From Candidatus Rokubacteria bacterium GWA2_73_35 (GTDB lineage Bacteria > Methylomirabilota > Methylomirabilia > Rokubacteriales > CSP1-6), in assembly GCA_001790205.1 (NCBI GenBank), contig MGBU01000034.1:1-32286 (forward strand): a DNA stretch of 32,286 nucleotides, read 5' to 3'. Below the pieces are notes generated by a model. That model made no database searches, was not told where the DNA came from, and saw only the letters and a list, made by a program, of their open reading frames with translations. Each line of letters opens with the position of its first letter. Position 1 is the first letter of the stretch. Shown piece by piece: positions 15,854-31,134 of the stretch. The translations under genes were made by a program, and so were the position numbers.

Positions 15854-17002
15854 ATGGCGGGCGAGGACATCTACGGCAGCCCCGAGCACCAGGCGTTCCG
15901 CGCCGTCGCGCGCAAGTTCATCCAGACCGAGCTCGCGCCGCGGGCGCGCGAGTTCGACGAGGCGGGGCGGCCGGACAAGGCGATCTTCCGGCGGCTCGGC
16001 GAGATGGGCCTGCTCGGCATCCGCTACGACCCCCGGTACGGCGGCCAGGGGCTCGACTACTCCTTCCAGGCCGTGTTCCTCGAGGAGCTGACCCTCTGCG
16101 ACAACGCCGGCGTGGCGATGGGCGTGAGCGTGCAGACCGACATGGCGACGCCCGCGCTCGCCCGCTTCGGTACTGAGGCGCTGAAGGAGCGCTACCTCGT
16201 GCCCGCGATCCGCGGCGAGCACGTGGCCGCGATCGCCGTCACCGAGCCCGGCGCCGGCTCCGACGTGGCGGGGATCAAGACGCGCGCGGTGCGCGACGGC
16301 GACTGGTGGGTGATCAACGGCTCCAAGATGTTCATCACCAACACGGCCAACGCCGACTGGCTCTGCCTGCTGGCCGTCACCGACCCCGGGGCGGGCTACA
16401 ACGGCTACACGCAGATCATCGTCCCCACGGACACACCCGGCTTCACTTATCGGCTGCTCGACAAGATCGGCAACCGGGGCTCGGACACCGGCCTGCTGTT
16501 CTTCGACGACGTGCGCGTGCCGGTCGCGAACACCATCGGCGACCCGAACCGCGGCTTCCAGCAGCAGATGAACCAGTTCCAGGACGAGCGCATGGTGCCG
16601 GTCGTCACCGGGCCCGTCGCCGCGCGGCGTCTCTGGGAGCTGACGCTCGAGCACGCCCAGCAGCGCGTGGTCTTCGGCAAGCCGCTCGCGAAGATGCAGG
16701 TGAACCGGTTCAAGTTCGTCGAGATGCAGATCCAGATCACCGCGGCGCAGGAATTCAGCCACCGCTGCATCCGCAAGATCGTCGCCGGCGAGGACGTGAC
16801 GCTCGACGTCTCGATGGCCAAGGTGTTCGTCGCCAACATGAAGCAGTACGTGGCGACGACCTGCGTGCAGCTCTTCGGCGGCAGCGGCTACATCTGGGAG
16901 AACCCCGCCGCGCGCGCCTACGTGGACTGGCGCCTCGGCACGATCGGCGGCGGCGCCGACGAGGTCATGAAGGAGGTCGCCGCCAAGCTGCTCCGCATCT
17001 GA
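15854..17002 (+). CDS. Acyl-CoA dehydrogenase
   Basis: The 382-residue product is a complete flavin-dependent acyl-CoA dehydrogenase that introduces an alpha-beta double bond and passes electrons to ETF. Both family signatures are present: AVTEPGAGSD near residue 131 and the C-terminal QLFGGSGYIWENPAARAY. The C-terminal catalytic glutamate position of short/medium-chain enzymes (Y-E-G-T) is replaced by G-G-A-D. E245 in QDERM lies where isovaleryl-CoA and long-chain enzymes place their base, so it is probably the base here. The ATG at 15854 follows only a weak purine run. The VOC gene begins 14 nt downstream with a good Shine-Dalgarno, so they are likely cotranscribed. Cytoplasmic. Confidence 0.93.
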   Translation: MAGEDIYGSPEHQAFRAVARKFIQTELAPRAREFDEAGRPDKAIFRRLGEMGLLGIRYDPRYGGQGLDYSFQAVFLEELTLCDNAGVAMGVSVQTDMATPALARFGTEALKERYLVPAIRGEHVAAIAVTEPGAGSDVAGIKTRAVRDGDWWVINGSKMFITNTANADWLCLLAVTDPGAGYNGYTQIIVPTDTPGFTYRLLDKIGNRGSDTGLLFFDDVRVPVANTIGDPNRGFQQQMNQFQDERMVPVVTGPVAARRLWELTLEHAQQRVVFGKPLAKMQVNRFKFVEMQIQITAAQEFSHRCIRKIVAGEDVTLDVSMAKVFVANMKQYVATTCVQLFGGSGYIWENPAARAYVDWRLGTIGGGADEVMKEVAAKLLRI

Positions 17003-17016
17003 GCCGGAGGATCGCG

Positions 17017-17442
17017 ATGAAAGCGGCGCTCTATCACGTGCAGGTCAACGTGAGCAGGGCCGCGCGCTCGTTCCCGTTCTACCGCGCCCTGCTCGGGTAC
17101 CTCGAGTTCCGCCGCGTCCACGAGGACGCGCAGAGCCTGGGCTTCTCGGACGGGACGGTGGACGTGTGGCTCATCGAAGCCGAGGAGCGGCACGCCGGCT
17201 TCGGCTTCCACCGGAAGCGCACCGGGCTCAACCACCTGGCGTTCCGCGTGGACTCGCAGGGCGCGGTCCAGCGCTTCGCGCGCGAGTTCCTGGCGCCGCG
17301 CCGGCTCACGCCCCTCTACGACACGCCCCGCGAGTTCCCCGAGTACGCGCCCGGCTACTACGCGGTCTTCTTCGAGGACCCCGACCGCCTCAAGCTCGAG
17401 CTCGCCCACGTGCCGCACCTGCTCGAGGCTCCGCACGCCTAG
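17017..17442 (+). CDS. VOC-superfamily (glyoxalase/dioxygenase-fold) protein
   Basis: The 141-residue product is a single vicinal-oxygen-chelate unit pair. Candidate metal ligands are H7 (YHVQVNV), the histidine of GLNHLAF near residue 73 and the glutamate of RLKLELAH near 128. This is the usual H-H-E set of lactoylglutathione lyase and related isomerases. F-x-D-P-D-R near the C-terminus is typical of the family. GGAGG sits six bases before the ATG. It follows the acyl-CoA dehydrogenase by 14 nt, which suggests an acyl-CoA-related role such as an epimerase, but that is inference. The TAG stop lies inside the left arm of the long palindrome that follows. Confidence 0.88.
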   Translation: MKAALYHVQVNVSRAARSFPFYRALLGYLEFRRVHEDAQSLGFSDGTVDVWLIEAEERHAGFGFHRKRTGLNHLAFRVDSQGAVQRFAREFLAPRRLTPLYDTPREFPEYAPGYYAVFFEDPDRLKLELAHVPHLLEAPHA

Positions 17443-17622
17443 CCCGGCTTGCTCATGAACGACTCCCGCGTGCGCCGAACGGGTCCTGCCGCGGCGGGCA
17501 GCCCCACGAAGCTCGCCACCCCCGCCCGGTGTGGGGGTCCCCCGGCTCGCTTCGTGGGGCCCCCCGCCCGCCGCGTCACCCGTTCGACCACCGTGGGCGC
17601 GTTCATGAGCAAGCCGGGCTAG
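17439..17622. repeat. 184-bp long imperfect palindrome with 22-bp perfect terminal inverted repeats (MITE-like)
   Basis: Bases 17439-17460 and 17601-17622 are exact reverse complements. The interior keeps pairing in blocks: CGAACGGGT with its complement, GCGGCGGGC with its complement, and GCCCCACGAAGC (near 17499-17510) with GCTTCGTGGGGC. A small G/C hairpin lies at the centre (about 17519-17539). The outer ends begin and finish with CTAG, so a TA duplication is possible. The element fills the gap between the VOC gene and the radical SAM gene. It could be a miniature inverted-repeat transposable element, a REP-type palindrome, or a strong bidirectional transcription barrier. It encodes nothing. 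Confidence 0.75.
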
Positions 17623-17624
17623 CG

Positions 17625-19076
17625 GTGCGCGTCCTGCTCGTCTACTGGAACCCGTCGCGCGAGCTGCTGCCCGCGCCGCCGATCGGCCTCGCCTACGTCG
17701 CGAGCGCGACCCGCCGCGCGGGCCACGACGTCCGCGTCCTCGACCTGGTCGGCCGGCGGCGGCCGCTCGAGGCGCTGCGCGCGCGCGTCGCCGCCGCGGC
17801 ACCGGACGTCGTGGGCCTCTCGATCCGCAACATCGACAACGTCGTCCGCCAGCGCCCGGCCTGGCACCTCGAGGACGCCGGCCAGCTCGCGGCGGCCGTC
17901 CGCGCGTCGAGCGCCGCCCGGATCGTGCTCGGCGGCCCGGCCGTCTCCGTCCTCGGCGCGCGGGTGCTCGCGCACGTGGACGGCGACTTCGCGGTCGTCG
18001 GCGAGGGGGAGGAGGCGTTCCCGCGCCTCCTGGCCGCACTCGCGTCGGGCGGGGGCGCCGCCGCGATCCCCGGCGTCTGCACCCGCGCCGGGGACGGCCC
18101 GCCCGCCGAGCCCGCGCGGCTGCCGCGCTTCGGCGCCTCGGGGCTGGAGGACTGGATCGACTGGCGCCCGTACGCGCGCGCGGGCGCGACGTGGCCGATC
18201 CAGACCAAGCGCGGCTGCGGGCTCGCGTGCAGCTACTGCGCCTACCCCACCGTCGAGGGCCGCGTCGCGCGCCGGCGGGCGCCCGCGGACGTCGCCGACG
18301 AGATCGAGCGCGTCCGCGCGCGGGTCGGCCCGCGCACCTTCGAGGTCGTCGACTCCACCTTCAACGTGCCCCCGGAGCACGCCGAGGCGCTGTGCGAGGA
18401 GCTCGTGCGGCGGCGCCTGCGCGTGCGCCTCACCGCGATGGGCGTCAACCCGCTCGGCGCCTCCGCGCGCCTGTTCGCGCTCATGCGGCGGGCCGGCTTC
18501 AACTCCATGATGATCACGCCCGAGGCGGCGAGCGAGACGATGCTCCGGAGCCTGCGCAAGGGCTTCGGCGTCGAGGAGGTCCGCGAAACCGCCCGGCTGG
18601 CCCGCGACTCGGGCCTGGCCAGCATGTGGTTCTTCATGCTCGGCGGGCCGGGCGAAACGCGCGAGACGGTCGAGGAGACGTTGTCCTTCGTCGAGCGGCA
18701 CCTCGATTGGCCCGCCTGCGTCAGCATCTTCATGACGGGGATCCGCGTGCTGCCCGGCACGGCCCTCGCGCGCGACGCCGTGGCCGCGGGCGCGCTCGCG
18801 GCGGAGCGCGACCTCGCGGAGCCCACCTTCTACCTCTCGCCCGCGGTGGACGAGGACTGGATGCTCGGCCGGATCAACCGGGCGATGCGGCGCACGCCCG
18901 CGATCGTACACGCCGCGGAGGAGGGCATGTCGACCTACGAGCGCATCGCGGACCGCGCCCTCGCGGCGGCCGGCGTCGCGCCGCCCTACTGGCGGTTCCT
19001 GCCGCTGCTCCTCCGCGTCCCGCCCGTGCCGGCGCTCCGGCGCCGCTGGCCCCCGCTCGGGCGGCCGGGGGATTGA
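17625..19076 (+). CDS. B12-binding-type radical SAM protein
   Basis: The 483-residue product has an N-terminal cobalamin-binding-type Rossmann domain (about 1-140). It includes PPIGLAYVASATRRAGHDVRVLD and VLGGPAVSV, but no D-x-H-x-x-G motif, so cobalamin binding may be base-off without a histidine ligand or absent. The radical SAM core follows with C198-x3-C202-x2-C205 (RGCGLACSYC) for the [4Fe-4S] cluster. The G-G-P-G-E-T element near residue 345 is the SAM-contact motif. A helical C-terminal tail completes it. The class includes methyltransferases and ring-forming enzymes of lipid and pigment biosynthesis (BchE/HpnP-like); the substrate is unknown. The GTG start is the only reasonable one and lies two bases after the palindrome. 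The last 91 bp overlap the phosphorylase gene on the other strand. Confidence 0.87.
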   Translation: MRVLLVYWNPSRELLPAPPIGLAYVASATRRAGHDVRVLDLVGRRRPLEALRARVAAAAPDVVGLSIRNIDNVVRQRPAWHLEDAGQLAAAVRASSAARIVLGGPAVSVLGARVLAHVDGDFAVVGEGEEAFPRLLAALASGGGAAAIPGVCTRAGDGPPAEPARLPRFGASGLEDWIDWRPYARAGATWPIQTKRGCGLACSYCAYPTVEGRVARRRAPADVADEIERVRARVGPRTFEVVDSTFNVPPEHAEALCEELVRRRLRVRLTAMGVNPLGASARLFALMRRAGFNSMMITPEAASETMLRSLRKGFGVEEVRETARLARDSGLASMWFFMLGGPGETRETVEETLSFVERHLDWPACVSIFMTGIRVLPGTALARDAVAAGALAAERDLAEPTFYLSPAVDEDWMLGRINRAMRRTPAIVHAAEEGMSTYERIADRALAAAGVAPPYWRFLPLLLRVPPVPALRRRWPPLGRPGD

Positions 19077-21520
19077 GCGGGCGCGAGCGGGAGCGGTACC
19101 AGCGACCAGATCTCCCGCGCGTACTCCCGCACCGTCCGGTCGGAGCTGAAGCGTCCGGCGCGCGCCACGTTCAGGAGCGCCGCCCGCGCCCAGGCCCCGG
19201 GATCGCGGTAGAGCGCGCCCGCGCGCTCCTGCGCGGCGACGTAGGCGCCGAGGTCGGCGAGGTGGAGCCACGGGTCGGGCTGCTCCACGAGGCACTGGCG
19301 CACCCGCGCGAGCTCCTCGGCCGAGAGGCCGTCGAAGTGGCCCGAGAGCAGGAAGTCCACGGCCCCCCGGATCTCCTCGTCGCGCTCGTAGACCTCCCGG
19401 CCCGGGTTCGCGCCGGAGGCCCGGAGCGCCGCCACCTCGTGGGCCTCGAGGCCGAAGGCGAAGAAGTTCTCGGCCCCCACCGCCTCGCGGATCTCGACGT
19501 TGGCGCCGTCGAGCGTGCCGATGGTGAGGGCGCCGTTGAGCGCGAGCTTCATGTTGCCGGTCCCCGAGGCCTCGGTCCCCGCGGTGGAGATCTGCTCGGA
19601 CAGGTCCGCGGCCGGCACGATCCGCTCGGCCAGCGAGACCCGGTAGTCGGGCAGGAACACGACGCGCAGGCGCCCCCGGACCGCGGGGTCGCGCTCGAGC
19701 GCGCGCCCCACGGAGTGGATCAGCCGGATCACGCGCTTGGCCTGCCAGTACGCCGGCGCGGCCTTCGCCGCGAACAGGACCGTGCGCGGGACGAGGTCGA
19801 GGGCCGGGTCCGCGCGCAGCCGCCGGTAGAGGAGCACGACGTGGAGCAGGTTCAGGAGTTGGCGCTTGTACTCGTGCAGGCGCTTGATCTGGACGTCGAA
19901 GAGGCTCGCCGGATCGACGCGCGTGCCGAGCGTGGCGGCGACGTGCGCGGCGAGAGCCTCCTTGGCCCCGCGCTTGATGGCCAGGAACTCGGTCCGCGCG
20001 CCCGCGTCCTCCGCCGCCGGCTCCAGCGCGCGGAGGCGATCGAGGTCGGTGATCCAGCCCTCGCCGATCCGCCGGGTGATGAACGCCGACAGCCCGGGGT
20101 TGCAGAGGCGGAGCCAGCGCCGCGGCGTGACGCCGTTGGTCTTGTTGGTGAAGCGCTCGGGATAGAGGGCGTGGAAGTCCGGCAGCAGGCGCTCGCGCAC
20201 GAGTGCGGTGTGGATGGCCGAGACGCCGTTGATCGCGTGGGAGCCCACGGTCGCCAGGTGCGCCATCCGCACGCGCTTGGGCGGGCTCTCCTCGAACAGG
20301 CTCAGGCGCCGCAGCCGCTCGGCGTCGCCGGGCCAGCGTCGCGCCGCCTCGTCGAGCAGCCGGCGGTTCACTTCCTCGACGAGCTGGAGGTGGCGCGGCA
20401 GGAGCCGCTCGAGCATCTCCACCGGCCACTGCTCCAGCGCCTCCGGCATCAGCGTGTGGTTCGTGTACGCCGTCGTCCGCGTGGTCACGTCCCAGGCCGC
20501 GTCCCACGCCATGCCCCCCTCGTCCACCAGCAGGCGCATCAGCTCGGCGACGGCCAGCGAGGGATGCGTGTCGTTCAACTGGATGGCGACCTTGTCCGGC
20601 AGCGCCTCGAGCGGGTTCCGGTCAGCGCGGTGGCGCCGCAGGATGTCCTGGAGCGTGCACGAGACCAGGAAGTACTGCTGCCGGAGCCTCAGTTCGCGGC
20701 CCGCGTAGACGCGGTCGTCCGGGTAGAGGACCTTGGTCAGGTTCTCGGCCTGCACCTTCTGGTCCACGGCCGCCGCGTAGTCGCCCTCGCTGAAGTCCTG
20801 GAGGTCGAACTCCCGGTCGGAGCGCGCGGACCAGAGCCGCAGCGTGTTCACGTGGGCGCCGCCCCAGCCGACGATCGGCACGTCGTAGGGCATCCCGACG
20901 ATCGTCCGCGCGTCCACCCAGCGGAACCTGAGCGCGCCCGCGTCGGGCGCGGGCGCGCTGCGGCCCTCGAAGGGGACGCCGAACACGTACTCGGGGCGCG
21001 CGAGCTCCCAGGGATGGGCCAGCCTGAGCCAGTTGTCGGGCTCCTCGACCTGGGCGCCGTCCCGGATGCTCTGACGGAACAAACCGTACTCGTACCGGAG
21101 CCCGTAGCCCATGGCCGGGTAGCCGAGCGTCGCGAGCGAGTCGAGGAAGCACGCGGCCAGCCGGCCGAGCCCGCCGTTGCCGAGCCCCGGGTCGGCCTCC
21201 AGCTCGCAGAGGTCGGTGAAGCCGAGGCCCCCCGCGCCGCCCGCGTCGCGGCACGCCGCGTCCAGGCCGAGGTTGATCGCGTTGTTGAGCAGGTAGCGCC
21301 CGGGCAGGAACTCCATCGACAGGTAGTAGACGCGCTTGACGTTCTCGCGGTGATAGGCCTGCTGCGTGACGATCCAGCGCTCGAGGACCCGGTCGCGCAC
21401 GGCGTAGGCGAACGCGAGGAAGCGGTCGTAGGCCGTCGCGCTGTAGTCGTCCTTGGCGAGCGAGTAGCGGAGGTGGCGGCCCGCGTCCCGCGCGAGGGCC
21501 GCCGCGGCGCGGCGACTCAC
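18986..21520 (-). CDS. glgP: Glycogen/starch/maltodextrin phosphorylase
   Basis: The 844-residue product is a full-length GT35 alpha-glucan phosphorylase, releasing glucose-1-phosphate from glycogen or maltodextrin. The pyridoxal-phosphate lysine is K658 in the signature EASGTGNMKLALNGAL followed by T-I-G-T-L-D-G-A-N-V-E-I. Other landmarks are YYLSMEFLPGR near residue 64, GNGGLGRLAACFLDS near 113, IQLNDTHPSLA near 338 and FDVQIKRLHEYKRQLLN near 533. The last 30 or so residues, rich in R, G and S, are encoded opposite the 3' end of the radical SAM gene and look like read-through rather than conserved sequence. The GTG start overlaps the stop of the alpha/beta hydrolase gene by four bases (21517-21520), so translation is coupled. 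Cytoplasmic homodimer in characterised members. Confidence 0.95.
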   Translation of the reverse strand: MSRRAAAALARDAGRHLRYSLAKDDYSATAYDRFLAFAYAVRDRVLERWIVTQQAYHRENVKRVYYLSMEFLPGRYLLNNAINLGLDAACRDAGGAGGLGFTDLCELEADPGLGNGGLGRLAACFLDSLATLGYPAMGYGLRYEYGLFRQSIRDGAQVEEPDNWLRLAHPWELARPEYVFGVPFEGRSAPAPDAGALRFRWVDARTIVGMPYDVPIVGWGGAHVNTLRLWSARSDREFDLQDFSEGDYAAAVDQKVQAENLTKVLYPDDRVYAGRELRLRQQYFLVSCTLQDILRRHRADRNPLEALPDKVAIQLNDTHPSLAVAELMRLLVDEGGMAWDAAWDVTTRTTAYTNHTLMPEALEQWPVEMLERLLPRHLQLVEEVNRRLLDEAARRWPGDAERLRRLSLFEESPPKRVRMAHLATVGSHAINGVSAIHTALVRERLLPDFHALYPERFTNKTNGVTPRRWLRLCNPGLSAFITRRIGEGWITDLDRLRALEPAAEDAGARTEFLAIKRGAKEALAAHVAATLGTRVDPASLFDVQIKRLHEYKRQLLNLLHVVLLYRRLRADPALDLVPRTVLFAAKAAPAYWQAKRVIRLIHSVGRALERDPAVRGRLRVVFLPDYRVSLAERIVPAADLSEQISTAGTEASGTGNMKLALNGALTIGTLDGANVEIREAVGAENFFAFGLEAHEVAALRASGANPGREVYERDEEIRGAVDFLLSGHFDGLSAEELARVRQCLVEQPDPWLHLADLGAYVAAQERAGALYRDPGAWARAALLNVARAGRFSSDRTVREYAREIWSLVPLPLAPAQSPGRPSGGQRRRSAGTGGTRRSSGRNRQ

Positions 21521-29972: not shown

Positions 29973-31113
29973 GGAGAAAGCGGCGCTCTTCCCGAAGATC
30001 ACCGACCAGGGCCTCGAGGACCTGCGCAAGCGCATCGGCGTCAGGATCACCGACACGCTGGAGCCGTGGTGCCGCGAAGCGACGCTCGATGCCATCCGTC
30101 ACTACGCGCACGGCATCGGCGACGACAACCCGCTCTGGTGCGATCCGGACTACGCGGCCCGCACGCGCTACGGCGGTATCGTCGCGCCGCCGAGCTTCCT
30201 GTTCGCCACGAACCGCATCATCTCCGGCTACGTCGGCGGGCTGTCGGGCGTGCACGCGATGTGGGCGGGCGCCGACTGGCGCTGGCACCTCCCCGTGCGG
30301 CGCAACGACGAGATCACGACGGAGGCGTGGCTGAAGGACGCGATCGAGCACGAGACGACGTTCGCCGGGCGGGCGATCCAGCAGATCTACCACGTCGACT
30401 TCCACAACCAGCGCGGCGAGCTCGTCGCCGACGCCGAGAGCTGGTGCTTCCGCACCGACCGCGACCTCGCGCGCGAGGCGGGCACGAAGTACACCGCGCT
30501 CCGGCGCAAGCCGCCGAAGCGCTACACGGAGGAGGAGCTCGCCGAGACCTACCGGCTGTACGCGAACGAGGAGGTGCGGGGGGCCACGCCGCGGTACTGG
30601 GACGACGTGCGCGAGGGCGAGCGCCTGCCGACGATGGCCAAGGGCCCGATGACCGTGACGGGCTTCATCGCGTACGCGCAGGGCTGGGGCGGGCTCTACA
30701 TCCGCGCGAACAAGCTCGCGTGGAAGCTGATTCACCGCCACGCCGGGCTCGGCATCACGAACCGCTTCGGCATCCCCGACTGCCCCGAGCGCGTGCACTG
30801 GGAGCACGAGCTCGCGACGATGGTCGGCGCGCCGGGCGCGTACGACTACGGCCCGGAGCGCTGCTCCTGGCTGACGCACCACCTCACGAACTGGATGGGC
30901 GACGACGGGTTCCTCCGCCGCGCGCAGTCGAAGATCCGCCGCCACAATCCCGAGGGCGACACGCTCCGGATCGACGGCACGGTCGTGCGGAAGTTCGTCG
31001 AAAACGACCGGCACCTCGTGGAGATCGAGCAGGAGGCGCGCCAGCAGGACGGCGAGCTGTCGATCGTCGGCAGCGGCATCGTGGAGCTGCCGGTGCGGAG
31101 GTTGCGAGACTAG
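29962..31113 (+). CDS. MaoC-like/FAS1-type acyl dehydratase (double hotdog)
   Basis: The 383-residue product has an N-terminal hotdog with the hydratase motif: YAHGIGDDNPLWCDPDYA (residues about 48-65), then a T-R-Y-G-G-I-V-A-P-P-S-F element. A second hotdog-like half follows from about residue 200, in which the catalytic D/H signature is degenerate (GFIAYAQGWGGLY). Such double-hotdog proteins add or remove water on enoyl-CoA or beta-hydroxyacyl-CoA. The Shine-Dalgarno GGGAG lies eight bases before the ATG, inside the 3' end of the acyl-CoA synthetase gene. It is the last gene before composition changes; the stop TAG is part of a short inverted repeat. Confidence 0.88.
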   Translation: MPRKEKAALFPKITDQGLEDLRKRIGVRITDTLEPWCREATLDAIRHYAHGIGDDNPLWCDPDYAARTRYGGIVAPPSFLFATNRIISGYVGGLSGVHAMWAGADWRWHLPVRRNDEITTEAWLKDAIEHETTFAGRAIQQIYHVDFHNQRGELVADAESWCFRTDRDLAREAGTKYTALRRKPPKRYTEEELAETYRLYANEEVRGATPRYWDDVREGERLPTMAKGPMTVTGFIAYAQGWGGLYIRANKLAWKLIHRHAGLGITNRFGIPDCPERVHWEHELATMVGAPGAYDYGPERCSWLTHHLTNWMGDDGFLRRAQSKIRRHNPEGDTLRIDGTVVRKFVENDRHLVEIEQEARQQDGELSIVGSGIVELPVRRLRD

Positions 31114-31134
31114 CTAGTGTGGCACAGGCTAGCT
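31112..31134. repeat. Short inverted repeat at the MaoC gene 3' end and start of the accessory region
   Basis: AGCTAG (31112-31117) and CTAGCT (31129-31134) pair, with TGTG/CACA continuing the stem inside. It overlaps the TAG stop at 31111-31113. There is no U-tract, so it is only a possible terminator. It also marks the point where GC3-biased core coding ends. Confidence 0.35.

Follow-up and report, generated by a model that had tools for sequence, protein, structure and literature searches.

A stop-codon-associated palindrome in a Candidatus Rokubacteria genome is probably a MITE of the IS1380 transposon family

Results

Location and folding of the palindrome

The stretch of DNA analyzed here (the window; 32,286 bp of Candidatus Rokubacteria bacterium GWA2_73_35) contains a 184-bp non-coding palindrome at 17439-17622, which is very probably a non-autonomous MITE mobilized in trans by a DDE transposase of the IS1380 family. 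This assignment, based on sequence comparison, follows from the combination of IS1380-type ends, a target-site duplication, additional copies, and empty sites. An earlier note on this DNA had already proposed a MITE, a reading that the dispersed copies, the empty sites of sibling copies, and the IS1380 ends support. The features of the locus are as follows.

17017-17442, + strand: VOC/glyoxalase-fold gene (PF00903, profile match), 141 aa, ending in the CTAG site
17439-17442, no strand: target-site duplication, left copy, CTAG (sequence, non-CTAG direct pairs, and empty sites of siblings)
17443-17461, + strand: left terminal inverted repeat, CCCGGCTTGCTCATGAACG (family consensus CCYGGATTATTCATGAA; arm comparison)
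17462-17480, + strand: left outer stem, variable from copy to copy yet paired with 17582-17599 (fold and copy alignment)
17481-17581, + strand: conserved hairpin core, GGGTCCTGCCGC...GCGTCACCC, common to elements with other ends or no recognized ends
17485-17488, + strand: CCTG bulge of the core, conserved in 47 of 49 aligned copies
17582-17599, + strand: right outer stem (fold and copy alignment)
17600-17618, - strand: right terminal inverted repeat, same as the left (arm identity)
17619-17622, no strand: target-site duplication, right copy, CTAG (sequence, direct pairs, and empty sites of siblings)
17625-19076, + strand: B12-binding radical SAM gene (PF02310 and PF04055; the nearest NCBIfam model, TIGR04072, scores below its cut-off)

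The earlier note had given the same coordinates and had suggested that the whole segment folds as one hairpin. Both points were confirmed. A 201-base DNA stretch including a few flanking bases folded into one hairpin at -89.8 kcal/mol (mean of 200 shuffles -51, z = -11.8, with no shuffle as stable), and the 184-base element folded as RNA at -144.6 kcal/mol (z = -13.9). The ends were perfect, as had been noted, over 23 bp rather than 22 bp: the left arm (17439-17461) and the right arm (17600-17622) have the same sequence (CTAGCCCGGCTTGCTCATGAACG), and their pairing extends to 17432-17629 if mismatches are tolerated (30 nt, 93%). The element ends 2 bases before the radical SAM start codon, a GTG at 17625, in agreement with the earlier description, and begins one base before the VOC stop codon TAG (17440-17442) rather than within it. 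The arm had no further match within the window at up to 3 mismatches, and 100 shuffles likewise gave none. A known RNA family was ruled out, as the Rfam models gave no match in the window at the gathering score.

Read outward from the right end (17605-17622), the element offers a five-codon open frame, ATG AGC AAG CCG GGC TAG, whose stop codon lies in the duplicated CTAG, 2 bases ahead of the next gene. The consensus end retains a comparable frame, ATG AAT AAT CCG GGC TAG.

Copies in the same genome and in relatives

The palindrome is a dispersed mobile element rather than a terminator present once. The genome of origin, whose assembly comprises 281 contigs and is 77% complete, contains at least five additional copies, and numerous copies occur elsewhere in the order. 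The closest of these is on contig C125 (91% identical), and relatives of the element with partly different interiors are located on C197, C239, and C259 (two on the latter). Matches were also found in 20 of 60 related genomes, including one with 14 copies (G037). The scan of relatives scored the best 13 candidates per genome, which makes the counts minimum values; isolated weak matches may be due to chance. Thus, the search for copies that the earlier note had recommended yielded them both on other contigs of the genome and in related genomes, with different flanks. No plasmid-borne copy was found in PLSDB.

Scanning the same genome for end-like sequences gave 17 matches versus 7 for a reversed-pattern control. 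Four of them (C171:2990, C191:3007, C251:3833, and C252:601) are lone sequences with 2-3 mismatches and no recognized partner, possibly decayed elements or chance matches. In a relative (L359, G003 C103), a hairpin element of another type, about 250 bp long (855-1102) and with CTAG at each end (CTAGTGTTCGATCCTCGAAGTC / CTAGCGTGCCGTGCTCGAAGTC), occupies the gene-end site that carries the 103-bp C239 element in the genome of the window.

Target-site duplication and empty sites

Since CTAG is its own reverse complement, only copies flanked by other 4-mers can separate a duplication from a terminal repeat. We therefore considered 78 elements, all chosen because both of their ends have a central TA. 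Same-direction pairs were TTAG/TTAG in three cases and CTAA/CTAA in four, versus none for the inverted combination TTAG/CTAA; a single TTAA/TTAA pair, which is palindromic, was uninformative on direction. The two ends agreed directly for T at position 1 (Fisher p = 5e-5) and A at position 4 (p = 1e-6), although these p-values are optimistic because the set includes related copies from the same genomes. Unequal 4-mers at the ends of 9 of the 78 elements (GTAG/CTAG in three cases, for example) were taken as later mutations. Judged from these pairs, the CTAG at the outer ends is a duplicated 4-bp target site of the form YTAR. The duplication of TA alone, which the earlier note had considered possible, was ruled out because bases 1 and 4 also agree between the ends; the duplicated unit is 4 bp long (CTAG and YTAR variants).

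Empty sites, also proposed as a check, were searched for by joining the flanks of six elements of the genome and comparing them with 36 relatives. They were present for three sibling copies, each with a single CTAG, GTAG, or TTAG. The site of the C197 copy was empty in G002 and G003 (GTAG), that of C259:1480 in G001 (CTAG), G002 (TTAG), and G003 (CTAG), and that of C259:4913 in G001, G006, and G007 (CTAG). No clean empty site was found among the relatives for the copy in the window, because the VOC/radical SAM neighborhood is rearranged in these genomes.

REPs are short hairpins that are not known to have either a target duplication or terminal repeats in common with DDE insertion sequences. 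Spread of a REP/BIME-type repeat by a TnpA-REP (RAYT) tyrosine transposase would account for a multicopy extragenic palindrome with conserved stem bulges and a TAG-containing end. This reading is nevertheless very unlikely here, since the element has a target duplication as well as the terminal repeats of DDE insertion sequences.

Terminal repeats shared with IS1380 elements

A scan of one genome per species for the end consensus CCTAGNSSGGATTATTCATGAA recovered at least 119 stretches from many phyla, and the matches listed were mostly convergent pairs 60-270 bp apart; records of Nitrospira, Sedimenticola, Myxococcales, and Planctomycetota contain such pairs. Among the matches listed, 49 of 70 small elements with such end pairs had an interior fold with z < -3.

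Longer end pairs enclosed transposase genes. In L156, ends located 1688 bp apart enclose a 457-aa protein matching PF13701 (E = 2e-128) and the IS1380 model NF033539 (E = 1e-108). Two other full-length elements, L221 (1692 bp) and L230 (1696 bp), have ends as in the palindrome around an IS1380 transposase. The L221 protein (NF033539, E = 2e-108) is 57% identical to that of L156, and both score far above the NF033539 cut-off. The terminal repeats CTAGCCYGGATTATTCATGAA differ from the ends of L156, L221, and L230 by 1-3 mismatches; the ends of L222, L224, L225, L227, L232, and L233 are recognizable and more diverged. Full-length IS1380 elements with matching ends came from the same family as the window and from a gammaproteobacterium. 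PF13701 is present in 27 of 60 genomes of the order, with no such gene in the genome of the window or in its three genus-mates, which is weak evidence for its absence given an assembly that is 77% complete and split into 281 contigs. The transposase with the same ends that the earlier note had suggested looking for was thus found (L156, L221, and L230), though outside this incomplete genome.

Mobilization of the MITE by an IS5-type transposase, which would fit the target pattern, as IS5 has the same YTAR/CTAG preference (PMC5493358), is highly improbable: the transposase genes found between these ends were PF13701/NF033539.

Insertion at stop codons

The window contains 14 CTAG sites versus 77 expected from base composition, an approximately 5.5-fold depletion. 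Excluding the duplicate at 17619, 13 native sites remain, 8 of which coincide with the in-frame stop codon of a predicted gene.

CTAG sites coinciding with such stop codons: 5808, 12169, 12726, 13586, 17439, 23239, 24500, 31110

Inspection of the joined flanks revealed stop-codon siting for five of the six elements of the genome. Among all copies, 86 ends had a long upstream open frame, and the frame stopped by the site was the longest of the three in 50 of them (one third expected, p = 3e-6). Depletion of CTAG and its concentration at stop codons thus explain why the element is found on a stop codon, and this site choice accounts for its position without any regulatory function. Separately, three CTAG lie within 23 bases just past a gene end at 31110-31132 (CTAGCTAG, the third 11 bases further).

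The main alternative is a regulatory hairpin or terminator maintained by the host and selected to decouple the VOC and radical SAM genes. The hairpin is very stable and lies right at a stop codon, the ribosome-binding region of the radical SAM gene would fall within its right arm, and core hairpins without recognized ends, found at matching gene ends in both G078 and G030, indicate that some copies may be retained for function. This explanation is unlikely in view of the dispersion of copies at variable positions, the empty sites of relatives, the transposon ends, and the 4-bp duplications. For an intrinsic terminator, moreover, no T run pattern was found within 16900-18000, and a single-copy terminator was ruled out by the copies, the empty sites, and the missing T run.

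The gene pair to be decoupled is itself not conserved, since VOC and radical SAM genes were adjacent in none of the relatives examined. In G003 (L357), the VOC gene also ends in CTAG and is followed by a glycogen phosphorylase gene; the radical SAM gene adjoins an aminotransferase gene at a distance of about 7.8 kb. G021, a more distant genome, has a CTAG upstream of the radical SAM start with the same spacing as in the window. The lack of this adjacency in relatives places the element within 2 bases of a synteny breakpoint. One-ended transposition is known for ISEcp1. Such a joint transfer of the element and the radical SAM gene was rejected, as positions 19077-19130, following the gene, contain neither CTAG nor an end-like sequence. 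The glycogen phosphorylase of the window (18986-19130 region) has an altered C-terminal tail extending into the radical SAM gene.

A hairpin core shared by elements with different ends

The core, consisting of GGGTCCTGYCGC on the 5' side and GCGYCACCC on the 3' side, recurs around very different interiors. A census based on a 27-base pattern of the 5' side retrieved 79 places in G078 (one for the reversed-pattern control), 26 in G077, 21 in G019, and 16 in G023; the pattern was also present in a single genome, G093, from a less closely related family of the class. The core was found between IS1380 ends of the window type, between ends of a second type (YTARCCCCAATCCGAAATAAT; core copies L287, L288, L292, and L293 of G078), and without recognized ends.

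Stem pairing was analyzed in 49 distinct arm sequences. Variable positions were paired in 637 of 735 cells, versus a mean of 476 and a maximum of 506 in 1000 shuffles, a contrast inflated by kinship among copies. The mismatch adjoining the CCTG bulge was of the pyrimidine-pyrimidine type, T.C in 32 copies and C.T in 14. The pattern used to collect the copies tolerated two substitutions and itself contains the GGGT, CCTG, and ACCC anchors, so their conservation follows in part from the selection; the stems that vary lie outside the pattern. Either selection or copying from arm to arm within the palindrome can maintain stem pairing. Homogenization of this kind could also have produced the perfect arms of the copy in the window, which weakens the case for the recent insertion suggested in the earlier note.

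Ends of the second type and their relatives were observed in L287, L288, L292, and L293 (G078), L071 (G025), L363 (G093), and L235 (G065). They also show 4-bp YTAR duplications and flank small elements, with the core present in the G078 and G025 copies. In L235, ends of this type, 1513 bp end to end, surround an IS1380-like protein (NF033539, E = 2e-59) that is 25% identical to the L221 protein over 253 aligned positions. In two genomes of one genus, L290 (G078 C112) and L324 (G030 C53) share the same gene-end junction, with the core apparently in opposite orientations.

It is conceivable, if on balance doubtful, that the core, with its covarying stems, forms an independent module, passed between at least two very different groups of IS1380 ends and persisting at gene ends in copies without recognized transposon ends. 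Its retention would then reflect either help of the folded strand in mobilization by several transposases or a role for the host.

Discussion

In the mechanism that we propose, an IS1380 transposase would bind both terminal repeats of approximately 19 bp and excise the element, which would then insert into a 4-bp YTAR site, preferably CTAG, with duplication of the site. As CTAG is scarce in this GC-rich genome and consists mostly of C followed by an in-frame TAG, insertions would tend toward stop codons. Duplication restores the stop codon, thereby leaving the upstream protein unchanged. We infer both the mobilization in trans by the transposases found here and the order of events at the locus. 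Most likely, the element is a transposon-derived parasite landing harmlessly on stop codons. Translation of the radical SAM gene could be reduced by the right arm, which overlaps the region upstream of that gene, and decoupling of the two genes is possible as a side effect.

The element shares terminal repeats and a duplicated target with the IS1380 family (PF13701, NF033539), from which it differs as a geneless palindrome of 184 bp with a 4-bp YTAR duplication; a 5-bp duplication was reported for IS1247, a member of this family (PMC3281130). Like other bacterial MITEs (e.g. MITEAba12 and TIMEs), it is short, non-coding, and multicopy, with the terminal repeats of an autonomous relative and a target duplication, but the palindrome is full-length and its core occurs between two unrelated sets of ends. 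IS5 has a different family of transposase and shares the YTAR target with CTAG favored (CTAG 15, CTAA 3, and TTAG 3 of 24 targets; PMC5493358). IS1380 transposases have been used as the prokaryotic outgroup for piggyBac, which is eukaryotic and similarly targets a 4-bp palindrome, TTAA, rarely TTAG/CTAA (PMC10813416). A literature search for MITEs and Rokubacteria found nothing, and the combination of a full-length palindrome, a CTAG stop-codon target, and a core between different ends was absent from the literature searched, which covers journals in part.

The shared bulged core is the new part of these observations. A structured DNA or RNA module that apparently changes transposon ends is unusual. 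The same terminal repeat occurs in several bacterial phyla. A rare target 4-mer that survives mainly as C-TAG stop codons in GC-rich genomes would provide a simple and testable reason for the build-up of such elements at stop codons without damage to genes.
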